DNA of 64,000 nt from Niallia sp. Man26 (GTDB taxonomy: Bacteria; Bacillota; Bacilli; Bacillales; Cytobacillaceae), in contig NZ_CP095744.1 of NCBI RefSeq assembly GCF_022049065.2, positions 372,001 through 436,000 on the forward strand, given 5' to 3'. Positions 14,377-20,069 of this stretch are shown one piece after another. Position numbers and translations under genes: made by a program. Numbering within the stretch: position 1 is the first letter of the stretch; the number at the start of each line of letters is the position of its first letter. The notes beneath the pieces were generated by a model. It did no database searches, was not told the origin of the DNA, and saw only the letters and a program-made list of their open reading frames with translations.

Positions 14377-15543
14377 TTATGACAGTTTTTTCGCTGGTTT
14401 AGAAATATAACCTCTCAGTAAAATAGTCACCAAACTTAACACTAAGAACAATATTCCTCCCCAAACAATATATTCTATCCCAATGCCTGTAATGAATAAG
14501 CCTCCTACAGCAGTTCCAATACTTATTCCCCAGTTAGAGCCCGAGACGAATAATCCATTAGCAAACTCTGGTGCTTCTGGTGCAGCAGAAGTTATCCAAT
14601 ATTGGTTCAAATTATTTTGAATGGAGAACAAAATGCCGAATATAATCATAATTATTGCCATCGGAACTAGAAGCTCTCCTACAAAAAACCATACGATGAA
14701 AATTAATGCCATTACTATCGGAAAAATAATGGCTGTTTTGATTGCACTTTTAGTAAGAAAATTCCCAGCCAGAAGATTTCCAACGATACTTGCTGCACCG
14801 AATAAAAAGAGTACTAGGCTTAAAGTTTTCCCAGATACTTGTGTAACACTAGTCAAGTATTCAGTGGTAAAACTATTCGTTCCAGCAACTGCGGCGGTTA
14901 GAAAAATAATCGTAAAAATGCTTAACCATGTAACTGGTCTTTTCAATACGCTTAACTGCTTTCCGTAAGATGTTTTCCCTGCAACTGGCATAGAAGGTAC
15001 TAAGAACAAAGTTAATAAAAATGCTACTGCATTTAAAGCAGCAGGAAACAGTAACGCCATTTCAATTGAAGCCATACTTGCAATAAATGTAGTGATAGGT
15101 ACACCAAGCACCATACCTGCAGAAACTCCCATAACAATAATGGTTATTGCTTTCCGAGCTTCCTTTTCATCCCCTGCCGTAGCTGCAATTGTTAATGCCA
15201 ATGAACAATAGATTGGATGAAAAAATGCAGGAATTATACGAGCGACTAATGCAATGTTAAAATTAGTTGCAAAAATAGAAAAAACAGTGCCGACTACAAA
15301 TACTCCTAAAGAAATAAGCATTACCTTTTTACGATTAATACCTGAAAATAAAACTGGTAATACTGGACCTGTAATAGCAACAACAAGTGCAAACAGACTA
15401 ACCAACAATCCGGCTCTTGTGACAGAAATTCCGTAATGCTCTGCCAGTAAAGGTAAAATACCGATTACACCCATCTCTGTGTTCAATACCCCAAATACTC
15501 CAAATGCTAAAATAAAAATAAGTAGTTTAGTATGTTTCTCCAA
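14377..15543 (-). CDS. DHA1-type MFS transporter (YtbD/AraJ-like efflux)
   Basis: A 388-residue 12-helix MFS protein of the sugar- or drug-efflux group. Signs are the start LLIFILAFGVFGVLNTEMGVIGILPLLAEHYGI (here in parts: FGVLNTEMGVIGILPLLAE) and the loop 2-3 region SGINRKKVML. B. subtilis has a similar pair, ytbD (MFS) with ytbE (aldo-keto reductase), and here the MFS, quinone reductase and aldo-keto reductase genes run in the same direction behind MerR-type promoters. Start is TTG at 15543, with GGGAG 7 nt upstream. It may export toxic carbonyl or electrophile products, by context only. Confidence 0.88.
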   Translation of the reverse strand: MEKHTKLLIFILAFGVFGVLNTEMGVIGILPLLAEHYGISVTRAGLLVSLFALVVAITGPVLPVLFSGINRKKVMLISLGVFVVGTVFSIFATNFNIALVARIIPAFFHPIYCSLALTIAATAGDEKEARKAITIIVMGVSAGMVLGVPITTFIASMASIEMALLFPAALNAVAFLLTLFLVPSMPVAGKTSYGKQLSVLKRPVTWLSIFTIIFLTAAVAGTNSFTTEYLTSVTQVSGKTLSLVLFLFGAASIVGNLLAGNFLTKSAIKTAIIFPIVMALIFIVWFFVGELLVPMAIIMIIFGILFSIQNNLNQYWITSAAPEAPEFANGLFVSGSNWGISIGTAVGGLFITGIGIEYIVWGGILFLVLSLVTILLRGYISKPAKKLS

Positions 15544-15712
15544 AATAGTACTCCCTTTTTAACAAAAAATTTCATTTGATATTTTTATAAATAAATTTTC
15601 GCTAACTAATATTAGCGGACCGGAAATGATTCCAGCTTATGGTTTAAAGCATATTTCATGTGAGCCTTCTATTTATACTTAGTTATAAATCATTTATATA
15701 CTGGATATATTT

Positions 15713-16720
15713 TTAATCTTGTGGAATAGTTAAAACGATTTTCCCAAAGTTTTCTCCCTGTTCCATTTTGAATAATCCCTCTGGTAGCTGTTCCAACGAA
15801 AGAGTTTCTTCCAAAATAGGATGAATTTGGTGTTCTTCAACAAATTTAAGCATCTCAGCAAAGTCTTGGGGACTTCCCATTGTAGAACCTATCAGGGACA
15901 TCTCCTTTACAGTCATACTTGGAAGGAATAAATTCGGTACTGCACCTCTCGTTGCACCAAAACTGACAATTCTACTACCAATTTTCCCAAGTGACACTAA
16001 GGTTGAAAACGAATCTCCACCAATACTGTCAATAGATAGGTCAATACCACCAGTTAATTTCTCTAATTTCTCCGACCAATCATCTGCTGTGTAGTTGACA
16101 CCTCCCACCGCACCAAATTCTTTAGCCTTTTCTATCTTTTCTTCTTTGCTTGATGTTACGTAAACTTTTGCTCCTAATGCAGCTGCAAACTGAACAAGAA
16201 AAGTAGCTACGCCTCCGCCAACACCTGGGATAAGTACGGTTTCCCCCTTCTTCACTTTACCTTTCGTGATTAGAGCACGGTAGGCAGTTAAGCCAGCGAG
16301 TGGTAGTGCTGCTGCTTCTTCCCAAGATAAATGAGTAGGTTTTGCGTAAACATTTTCCACTTGTATCTTTACATATTGAGCGAATGTTCCGTCAGTTGGA
16401 TTACCAAGAACTTGGAAGTCGGTACTTTTTTTATCTTTATCATTTCCCCAGTTTATTCCAGGGTTTATAATGACTTCACCAATAAAGACATTTTGAACTT
16501 CGCCTCCAACCTCGACGACCTTTCCTGCACCGTCGGAACCAAGAATAGCTGGCAGTTTCATCCCTGGGTATTGCCCTTTTACAACCATAAGATCTCTTCG
16601 GTTAAGAGATGCCGCTTGTAATCGAACGATGACATCATTCGGACCCGGTTTTGGCTTTTCTATATCTTGTAACTTTAATTGACTTGGTTCCCCTGTTTCT
16701 CTTAACATTATTGCTTTCAT
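15713..16720 (-). CDS. Zinc-type alcohol dehydrogenase-like / NADPH:quinone reductase (MDR family)
   Basis: A 335-residue medium-chain dehydrogenase/reductase. The N-terminal GroES-like domain holds LPAILGSDGAGKVVEVG (about 56-72). The nucleotide site is VLIPGVGGGVATFLVQFA (about 163-180), followed by SSKEEKIEKAKEFGA. The cysteine cluster of structural zinc is missing, so this is a quinone- or enone-reductase-like member. It is the second gene of the aldo-keto reductase set, 52 bp downstream of it; AAAGGA precedes the ATG. It likely reduces reactive carbonyls or quinones. Confidence 0.88.
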   Translation of the reverse strand: MKAIMLRETGEPSQLKLQDIEKPKPGPNDVIVRLQAASLNRRDLMVVKGQYPGMKLPAILGSDGAGKVVEVGGEVQNVFIGEVIINPGINWGNDKDKKSTDFQVLGNPTDGTFAQYVKIQVENVYAKPTHLSWEEAAALPLAGLTAYRALITKGKVKKGETVLIPGVGGGVATFLVQFAAALGAKVYVTSSKEEKIEKAKEFGAVGGVNYTADDWSEKLEKLTGGIDLSIDSIGGDSFSTLVSLGKIGSRIVSFGATRGAVPNLFLPSMTVKEMSLIGSTMGSPQDFAEMLKFVEEHQIHPILEETLSLEQLPEGLFKMEQGENFGKIVLTIPQD

Positions 16721-16772: not shown

Positions 16773-17624
16773 TTAAATATCAAATTTCCAATTGGCAAAT
16801 TGCTTCACAATATTTGGATTGTTTTTGGAAGGAAATAGACTCGTATTTGTATCTAAAGTTGAAATTGCGTCCATATCGTCTTGGCTTAATTCAAAGTCAA
16901 AAATACGAAAGTTTTCGATAATTCGTTCCTTGTGAACAGACTTTGGAATCACAACAATTCCCCTTTGTGTTAACCACCTTAAAATTACTTGAGCAACAGA
17001 CTTTTTATGCTTATTAGCTAATGTAACTAAAATTTCATTTTGAAAAATGTTATTTTTACCTTGAGCAAGCGGACCCCAAGACTCCATCTGGATATTGTAT
17101 TCTTTCATAATTTTTTCACTTTCCAATTGGTGGTAAAATGGATGGGTTTCAATTTGGTTTACAACTGGAACAATATCGTTATGACAAATCAAATCTACTA
17201 AACGATCCATCTGGAAATTACTTACGCCTATTGCTTTAACTTTTCCTTGTGCATACAATTCCTCCATCGCACGCCAAGATCCGTATATATCCCCAAATGG
17301 CTGGTGAATCAAATATAAATCTATATAGTCCAATTGCAGCCTATCCAATGATTTTTCAAAAGCTATTTTTGCACGCTCAAAACCAGCATCCTGAACCCAC
17401 AGTTTTGTTGTAACAAATATTTCCTCTCTAGGCACTCCACTGCGTATGATAGCTCTCCCGACCGCTTCTTCATTTTCATAAGCAGCTGCAGTATCAATTA
17501 GACGATAACCAGCAATAAGTGCATCGTAAACTGCTTGTTCACATTCTTCAGCATCTGGGATCTGCCAAACTCCAAATCCGAGTAAAGGCATTTCAACACC
17601 ATTATTTAAAGTCACTTTTTGCAT
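16773..17624 (-). CDS. Aldo/keto reductase (YtbE / 2,5-diketo-gluconate reductase type)
   Basis: A 283-residue NADPH-dependent carbonyl reductase. The full catalytic tetrad is visible: Asp44, Tyr49 (DTAAAYENE), Lys74 (TTKLWV) and His107 (LYLIHQP). The family signature GVSNFQ and the cofactor-binding IPKSV segment near the C-terminus are present. The start at 17624 is chosen since GGAGG is 7 nt upstream; the ATG at 17660 would read through this site. First gene of the operon, led by three tandem MerR-type promoters. A role in aldehyde detoxification fits both the family and the regulator type. Confidence 0.92.
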
Positions 17625-17726
17625 ACTAAAACCTCCAAAAATAGTCTCTGATTTATTCAAAGTAAATCCTTTACTCTTGCATGTTTTATTGCGAAATTTT
17701 ACTATCAGATTCTTTGAACAGCTTTA

Positions 17727-17757
17727 AATATAATTCCTTCGTGTAACACGAAGTCAA
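17727..17757 (-). promoter_or_regulatory. MerR-type promoter 1 (proximal) of the reductase operon
   Basis: On the minus strand TTGACT (17752-17757) and TATATT (17727-17732) are separated by exactly 19 bp, the long spacer typical of MerR-activated promoters. The spacer contains the dyad CTTCGTGT-A-ACACGAAG (17737-17753). Confidence 0.8.
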
Positions 17758-17821
17758 GAAAGAGATAGCATTTTTTAAATCGATTTAGGTATTTACAAGA
17801 TTGGAAATCCTGAGTATCATT

Positions 17822-17852
17822 ACCTTACCAGCTTCGTGTTACTCGAAGTCAA
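17822..17852 (-). promoter_or_regulatory. MerR-type promoter 2 (middle copy)
   Basis: TTGACT (17847-17852) with a 19-bp spacer to TAAGGT (17822-17827). The dyad (17832-17848) has one changed base (CTTCGTGTTACTCGAAG) and the -10 is poor, so this copy may act mainly as a binding site. Confidence 0.6.
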
Positions 17853-17913
17853 GAAAAGATAGTATTTTTTATATTTATATAGGTATTACAAGATTGAAAT
17901 TCTGAGTATCGTT

Positions 17914-17944
17914 ACAATATCACCTTCGTGTTACACGAAGTCAA
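17914..17944 (-). promoter_or_regulatory. MerR-type promoter 3 (distal copy)
   Basis: TTGACT (17939-17944), 19-bp spacer, TATTGT (17914-17919), with a perfect dyad at 17924-17940. It lies 46 bp from the MerR start codon, so it may also serve autoregulation of the divergent regulator. Confidence 0.65.
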
Positions 17945-17989: not shown

Positions 17990-18451
17990 ATGTATACGGT
18001 AAAAGAAGTTGCTAAATTACTTGATATAACCTCCCACACTGTACGTTACTATACAGATAAGGGGTTAGTTCCTAATCTACAGCGAGATAAAAATAATAAT
18101 CGCATCTTTAAGGATGATTCTATAAATTGGCTTAGAGGGGCAAAAAACTTAAAAAAGAGTGGAATGTCAGTTGATGATATAAAGAAATATGTTGAGCTCT
18201 GTTTGGAAGGTGATTCTACTATTCCGGAACGTTTTGAAATAATATTGAAGCAAAAAGAACTGGTCCTGAAGCAATTAGAAGAAGCAAAATTAATGGCCGA
18301 ATATATTCTAAATAAAGAAAAGCACTACCGTAATATTATGAATCAGGTTATTCCAGATGATACGAACCCTGCCCTTTGGCATAATGGTAGATTGCCAAAG
18401 AGTGACAGCCAATCTTGTCAACCCGTTAATGAGGCTAAGATTGCTGATTAG
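17990..18451 (+). CDS. MerR family transcriptional regulator (AdhR/YraB-like)
   Basis: A 153-residue regulator. Residues 2-35 are the winged helix-turn-helix (YTVKEVAKLLDITSHTVRYY) followed by the second wing (NNNRIFKDDSINWL). A long coiled-coil dimer helix spans about 78-120. There are no paired metal-binding cysteines; a single Cys sits near the C-terminus (SQSCQP). This is the pattern of the electrophile-sensing branch. It is divergent from the reductase operon and next to three matching operators, so it almost surely controls that operon. AAGGAG lies 11 nt before the ATG. Confidence 0.9.
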   Translation: MYTVKEVAKLLDITSHTVRYYTDKGLVPNLQRDKNNNRIFKDDSINWLRGAKNLKKSGMSVDDIKKYVELCLEGDSTIPERFEIILKQKELVLKQLEEAKLMAEYILNKEKHYRNIMNQVIPDDTNPALWHNGRLPKSDSQSCQPVNEAKIAD

Positions 18452-18490
18452 AAAGAATTATTTATAATATAAATTATCCATTAATAGTTA

Positions 18491-18524
18491 AAAGTCGATG
18501 TTCCTATGGAATATCGACTTTTTC
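18491..18524 (+). terminator. Terminator of the MerR gene
   Basis: A 14-bp stem with one G-U pair (18491-18504 with 18508-18521), a 3-nt loop and a following T run. Confidence 0.9.
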
Positions 18525-19448: not shown

Positions 19449-19952
19449 TTAAAATGAAAATTCCTTTTCAGATAGTCCCAAAATATCTGTATTATTAGGT
19501 AAATAACCGAGTAACCGCAGCATTGCTACAATTTGCCCCTTATGATGAAATTCATGCGTAATAGAATGGCATAGTAATTGGTGTGGCGATTTTCTTATAA
19601 CCCCACTGCCTACTTTCCAAGAAGGCTCTTTAACGATCAGTTCATTATTTCTATCAGCGAATTGATCGAAAACATTATCTACATATATATTTGCCTGCTG
19701 AAAATAATGTTGGATATTTTCCATTTTCATTTCCTTGATTGCTTCCTTTGATAATAATGGTGCATCCGTTTTGGCAAGCACAAAAGAACCTAACCAAGCA
19801 TGATAACAACCCGCGACATGAACTAAGGAATCTCTTATATTTTAAAATCCAAATCCAAACTCTTTTGTAAAATCAGCTTCATTCAATTCTTTACACTGGT
19901 CTAGTAAAATCTGCCTTGTTTGTTTTACCCACTCATATTCCTGTTTGTCCAT
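19449..19952 (-). pseudogene. DinB family protein gene broken by an in-frame stop
   Basis: The frame from ATG 19952 to TAA 19449 is one DinB-like four-helix protein of 167 codons, interrupted by TAA at 19842-19844 after FGFGF. Downstream the frame resumes with NIRDSLVHVAGCYHAWLGSF and ends with the family His motif HEFHHKGQIVAMLRLLGY. The metal ligands His (LVHVAG; HEFHHKG) are intact on both sides, so a single substitution (for example CAA or GAA to TAA) accounts for it. The part after the stop could still be made from an internal GTG or ATG, but it would lack helix 1. DinB/YfiT proteins are metal-dependent thiol transferases or damage-induced proteins. Confidence 0.8.
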
Positions 19953-20069
19953 CTCACTATCCCCCACTTATAAAGATAATAACTGAATATTCTTCTTATT
20001 ATACATAAATGAAGCTTTTCACTAAACACTAATTTTCCATTTCGTACCGACATAATGTGGAGTCTTTTA

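Follow-up and report, generated by a model that had tools for sequence, protein, structure and literature searches.

Three tandem MerR-type promoter units with exact 19-bp spacers between a merR gene and a reductase gene run in Niallia sp. Man26

The stretch of DNA considered here, referred to as the window, comprises 64,000 nucleotides of Niallia sp. Man26, and all coordinates below are counted from its first letter unless another locus is named. It contains a gene for a MerR-type regulator (17990..18451, plus strand; 153 aa, MerR_1, PF13411) that diverges from a run of genes read from the minus strand. These include an aldo/keto reductase gene (16773..17624, 283 aa), whose product is a relative of solved 2,5-diketogluconate reductases and of YvgN, followed by a gene for a zinc-type alcohol dehydrogenase / quinone-oxidoreductase-like protein (15713..16720, 335 aa) and by a gene for an MFS transporter (14377..15543, 388 aa). 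The reductase start was taken as the ATG at 17624 for its GGAGG, the mechanical ORF beginning at the TTG at 17660. As for the dehydrogenase, none of the listed NCBIfam matches reaches its cut-off, and this includes the one by which it resembles PIG3-family quinone oxidoreductases. Co-transcription of the MFS gene with the dehydrogenase gene is not certain because a terminator-like hairpin (15600-15617) lies between them. The same three gene types occur in the same order in N. cucumis (L038), with a short reductase ORF (175 aa), while at L035, at L036 and in genome G006 the array described below faces a different MFS gene, as assigned by Pfam, with no BLAST match to the window transporter at 1e-8. 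On the other side of the array, a 15-pair hairpin with a T-run directly after merR (18490-18522) looks like the merR terminator. Further along, the stretch 19449-19960 holds a 110-aa minus-strand ORF, and the sequence upstream of it to about 19960 also looks coding by eye; this ORF may be the remainder of a longer, possibly broken gene.

The intergenic region contains three units, numbered here from merR, each with a promoter read from the minus strand in the direction of the reductase, namely the target promoter. Copy 1, the nearest to merR (17914..17944), reads TTGACT-N19-TATTGT with a dyad at 17924-17940 (CTTCGTGTTACACGAAG); copy 2 (17822..17852) reads TTGACT-N19-TAAGGT with a dyad at 17832-17848 (CTTCGTGTTACTCGAAG, one arm mismatch); and copy 3, the nearest to the reductase (17727..17757), reads TTGACT-N19-TATATT, the best target -10 of the three, with a dyad at 17737-17753 (CTTCGTGTAACACGAAG). 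The dyads are 17 nt long, and in all three copies they lie inside the -35/-10 spacer, whose 19 bp fall in the range of 19-20 bp expected of a MerR-activated promoter. The first-pass annotation of this DNA had described these dyads, hexamers and spacers in repeats of about 93 bp, and all are where it placed them, the actual dyad-to-dyad spacings being 95 and 92 bp; its reading of a MerR-type promoter geometry between a divergent merR and a run of reductase genes is likewise supported. TRF reports the whole array (17736..17944, no strand assigned) as 2.2 copies of a 92-nt unit with 84% matches and a score of 306, and the other seven repeat rows of the window score 40-61. A search for TTGACTTCGTGTNACACGAAG with up to three mismatches gave five matches in 64 kb, which are the three array sites and two of them re-read from the opposite strand, so that the window holds no further site at this threshold; 100 shuffles gave a mean of 0.00. 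Outside the core, copies 1 and 2 are 81% identical, and copy 3 is 52% and 38% identical to these, a divergence that rules out an assembly artefact. The 19-bp register is not a peculiarity of the window: among 45 related sites, selected ignoring the -10, 40 have a TAnnnT at 19 bp from the -35, and none has one at 17, 18 or 20 bp.

Two of the three units carry, in addition, a sigma-A-like pair that points the other way, toward merR, a feature absent from the first-pass annotation. In copy 2 it reads TTTACA-N17-TATCAT (17792..17820, plus strand; 10/12, shuffle p 0.0005), and the weaker pair of copy 1 reads ATTACA-N16-TATCGT (17885..17912, plus strand; 8/12, shuffle p 0.04). Both -10 elements end 11 nt ahead of the dyad, so that at the level of sequence an opposite-strand merR promoter adjoins the dyad in these copies and not in copy 3, where the shared register scores 5/12 (shuffle p 0.59). 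A generic promoter scan of the region gave 6 matches, against 5.3 in shuffles, and included the pair of copy 2 and not that of copy 1; consensus alone therefore proves nothing, and the case rests on the register. This register was spotted in the window and at L036 first, and the same register was then scored elsewhere. In all five arrays of the regulator clade described below, the copy closest to merR has a TTTACA-like/TATnAT-like pair scoring 8-10/12 at this fixed position. The same scores are reached at 11 single-copy loci from Bacillaceae or from the window's own family (L039, L040, L097, L099, L103, L104, L121, L122, L124, L125 and L128), with mixed scores, from 4 to 9, at more distant loci. 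On average, the 33 merR-nearest sites score 7.8, and ten control registers over all 45 sites score 4.4.

Regarding the regulator itself, PF13411 covers residues 2-69 (E 9.6e-18), and the protein aligns to MerR structures over residues 2-109, as expected for an N-terminal MerR helix-turn-helix. Among solved structures, its closest relatives are HI_0186 (5e01) and two further entries of identical aligned sequence (E about 1e-18), and its best NCBIfam model, the NmlR equivalog NF041849, gives 74.5 bits, below the curated cut-off of 175. The cysteine of the QCLK motif of HI_0186, a protein that we take to be NmlR, is the sensing residue; it aligns to position 53, where the window MerR has Asn53. 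This position is a cysteine in 5 of the 34 orthologs, and Cys71 is common to 31 of the 34 rows. The window MerR thus resembles the AdhR/NmlR group (B. subtilis AdhR, H. influenzae HI_0186) in its nearest solved relatives and best model, and differs from it in the low NmlR score and in Asn53; two papers describe this group as redox/aldehyde-type regulators (PMC9909328, PMC11577753). The genome also encodes a paralog, 64% identical to the window merR (G000:C2:1226111-1226572; L104 7112-7615), with a single operator that faces genes for a distantly related aldo/keto reductase (30%) and for an FAD-binding protein. Cross-talk between the two regulators is likely, since they share 34 of their first 40 residues and the operator of the paralog is identical in sequence to that of copy 1.

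In the whole genome (G000; 5.7 Mb, 6 contigs), four strong operators were found, three in the array and one before the merR paralog (C2:1226121), while a weaker site with three mismatches lies ahead of another aldo/keto reductase gene (C2:1132681). Outside this genome, the operator adjoins merR orthologs in Neobacillus, Priestia, Weizmannia, Paenibacillus, Cohnella, Psychrobacillus and others. Of 193 genomes of the family, 5 match a strict tandem-pair pattern, which misses arrays with a changed motif or a longer spacing; among 397 genomes sampled from the order, the genome of the window alone matches it. The family count is a lower bound, because the pattern has no match in G005 nor in G146, even though locus L120 of G146 carries the N. 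cucumis array.

The number of units was counted in 41 sources, two of which, L119 and L120, duplicate L037 and L038 and so were dropped from the register scoring, the tree and the recount; the distant loci L058-L073 and L076-L078 were screened in a separate step, and L074-L077 in another. Besides the window, with its three copies, arrays were found in G006 (three copies, spacings of 81 and 140 bp), Neobacillus sp. Marseille-Q6967 (three copies; 99 and 157 bp), Bacillus sp. ISL-18 (four copies; 97, 153 and 97 bp) and N. cucumis (two copies; 101 bp), whereas Bacillus sp. MM2020_1 (L037) has one copy. The MerR orthologs of these six form one clade (97/93) in a maximum-likelihood tree of 34 rows, built without L056, L074, L075, L126 and L127, each of less than 100 aa; among the remaining 28 rows, one site is present in 21, none in five and two in two. 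Since L037 keeps the same reductase and dehydrogenase genes with a single copy, the array is dispensable. Units resemble each other across species as well as within arrays: copy 3 of the window is closest to the second unit of ISL-18 (67% outside the core), units 2 and 3 of Marseille-Q6967 match units 2 and 4 of ISL-18 (70% each), and units 1 and 3 of ISL-18 are 81% alike. Units have therefore been both inherited and re-duplicated, and the single unit of L037 could have arisen by dyad-to-dyad recombination. The first-pass annotation had called the tripling unusual, which is right at the scale of the family (at least 5 of 193 genomes with the strict pattern) and of the order sample, where the window genome stands alone; its suggestion of a recent selection for higher resistance is not supported, given that the same MerR clade has arrays of two to four diverged units in other species. 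A recent duplication is rejected on the same ground, and because the copies of the window differ by at least 19% outside the core. Judged by these comparisons, the array seems to be a regulatory design of some age whose units have been reshuffled, and not a recent accident.

In two genomes, G002 and G005, the search found no MerR of this clade above its threshold, and the best candidates there (63-64%) fall in the paralog group. Each nevertheless has, in front of the dehydrogenase gene and with no merR adjoining, two units separated by 98-99 bp (L098 5460-5578; L101 6739-6858). The outer unit retains a remnant of a merR-direction promoter, scoring 8/12 at the register and 9 one base off, and the inner unit scores 5. 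Both genomes also have decayed merR-like stretches with stop codons (G002:C2:21214-21592 and G005:C2:173755-173964; L129 and L130), whose neighbourhoods share several ORFs and have no operator within 13 kb around each.

The two promoter directions raise the matter of whether the units differ in role. The 15 units of the five clade arrays, all selected ignoring the -10, read TAnnnT in 14 cases, the exception being copy 1 of L038. The -10 identity among them is 0.69, against 0.39-0.56 in the flanking stretches, while the identities of the -35 and of the dyad are inflated, since the sites were found through both. When these units are classed by the presence of a merR-direction promoter at 8/12, their target -10 scores (out of 6) are 3, 3, 3, 3, 4, 4, 4 and 4 with one, and 3, 4, 5, 5, 5, 5 and 5 without; a score of 5/6 thus occurs in 5 of 7 units lacking the merR promoter, in none of the 8 that have it, and in none of 26 single-copy sites. 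The contrast has a Mann-Whitney p of 0.017 and a Spearman coefficient of -0.71 (p 0.003), values that overstate the case because the copies share ancestry. The merR-side unit of N. cucumis presents the converse: it keeps the dyad and a merR promoter (TTTACA/TATTAT) and has lost the target -35 and -10 (TACACT, TGTTCT). A division of labour purely by position fits the five arrays of the clade; outside it, the scheme fails in both available pairs, L123 (G061; units 150 bp apart) and L044 (Paenibacillus sp. P96; 78 bp apart), where the merR-nearest unit scores 5/12 for the merR promoter and the target-nearest unit 9 and 8, the reverse of the window. Including these two loci weakens the -10 contrast (p 0.11; Spearman -0.45, p 0.056), and across the full set of 45 sites the Spearman coefficient is -0.19 (p 0.22). 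Moreover, across the seven multi-copy loci, the merR-promoter score of the target-nearest unit is 5, 5, 8, 5, 7, 8 and 9, so that its loss at the target side is clear in three of the seven. The -10 contrast would at best be a property of the clade. That a multiplied divergent region has split its two jobs, with the merR-side units keeping the merR promoter and the target-side units having lost it and gained a stronger target -10, is a tentative idea, with the chances leaning against it.

MerR promoters are textbook one-site switches, in which the regulator distorts an over-long spacer, this being the general MerR mechanism. For the array we give a slightly better than even chance to a reading in which MerR switches each copy, the merR-side units also autoregulate merR, and target transcription starts mainly from the reductase-side unit. 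A MerR dimer would sit on the dyad inside the over-long 19-bp target spacer of each unit and, on induction by a putative inducer, would distort the spacer so that RNA polymerase can use the target promoter. In copies 1 and 2, an ordinary promoter with a 16-17 bp spacer would face merR, and MerR on the same dyad would keep merR expression low. The main reductase promoter is probably copy 3, because it lacks a merR promoter and has the best target -10; copies 2 and 1 would add transcripts running through the downstream copies and set the level of merR. What the sequences show is the anatomy of the units, the exact 19-bp register in relatives, and an array that is old and recurrent; binding by the window MerR, the use of each start, the division of labour and the inducer are inferred, binding from the linkage of the operator to merR orthologs. 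The graded strength and merR autoregulation offered earlier are compatible with this scheme and are sharpened by it, as the merR-direction pairs are confined to copies 1 and 2. Counting against it, transcripts from the upstream copies would need to pass MerR-bound dyads.

A simpler account, which we regard as unlikely, holds that only one copy, adjacent either to the reductase or to merR, is used, and that the others are functionless leftovers of slippage or unequal recombination. The variation from one to four copies inside one clade, with a single copy at L037, would fit this, as would copies 1 and 2, which look like a tandem duplicate with their 81% identity. Leftovers would hardly be expected, however, to keep the -10 at exactly 19 bp, as TAnnnT in 14 of 15 units, when the flanks have drifted to 0.39-0.56 identity, and the sole exception, in N. 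cucumis, is without a -35 as well; the pair also persists without merR in G002 and G005. It is also improbable that the extra dyads serve as decoys, titrating MerR and thereby making the response sharper or later: the array does hold three of the genome's four strong operators, yet decoys need no -10 at 19 bp. Moreover, the usual copy numbers of such regulators are well above the four or five sites present in a genome.

Cooperation between units, with MerR dimers on neighbouring dyads interacting or looping the DNA, is quite improbable. Spacings near 92-101 bp do recur (95, 92, 99, 97, 97 and 101, and 98-99 in G002/G005), but shared descent can explain this similarity, spacings of 81, 140, 153 and 157 also occur, and at 10.5 bp per turn the helical phases of the ten spacings range from 0.05 to 0.95, with no fixed helix face. 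We consider it very improbable that the dyads represent mobile or REP-like palindromes, RNA hairpins or attenuators, although they are palindromic and repeated and that of copy 3 is flagged as terminator-like on the minus strand. The four strong matches of the genome are confined to this array and to the site before the merR paralog, the leader folds little better than its shuffles (z -0.89; 35 of 200 as good), and at 40 of 45 sites a -10 stands in register.

Among known systems, that of mercury resistance has MerR lying between two adjacent, divergent promoters of the mer operon and in contact with both (PMC1526738), and its target promoter has a 19-bp spacer (PMC11049809). The merR/mer region of Tn21/Tn501 is therefore similar in its divergent promoters and target spacer, and differs, as described there, in having one unit, against three here and one to four in the relatives, with a regulator of another subfamily and other targets. 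BmrR and EcmrR activate by distorting a 19-bp spacer (PMC8113463); they share with the array the promoter geometry and the expected mechanism, whereas Pfam recognises only MerR/HTH models, and no drug-binding domain, in the 153 aa of the window MerR. Among the matches listed by a literature search of titles and abstract openings, with subscription papers mostly outside its scope, there was no tandem series of MerR promoter units, and four literal operator cores led to one unrelated paper only. Both the divergent arrangement of promoters around MerR and the 19-bp spacer are classical features (PMC1526738, PMC8113463); the tandem series appears to be a new variation on them.

If the two jobs of the divergent region have indeed been split between units, an array of one to four units that keeps losing and gaining copies and moving to other reductase and transporter genes would be a regulatory module evolving by dyad-to-dyad recombination. 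This natural series of one, two, three and four units before the same regulator allows one to ask how copy number affects a promoter activated by distortion, whether a polymerase that has started upstream gets past downstream sites bound by MerR, and how an overlapping promoter that serves two directions avoids a conflict between its outputs.

A mixed form of the operator, TTGACTTAGAGTAACACGAA (TTGACTTAGTGTAACACGAA at L096), occurs before a gene for a 281-aa aldo/keto reductase in four genomes (L131 6682-6702; L096 5987; L100 6967; L102 6775). This reductase is 56-57% identical to that of the window, and one half of the mixed operator is like the CTTAGAGT half of the dyads at the distant merR loci L068 and L071.
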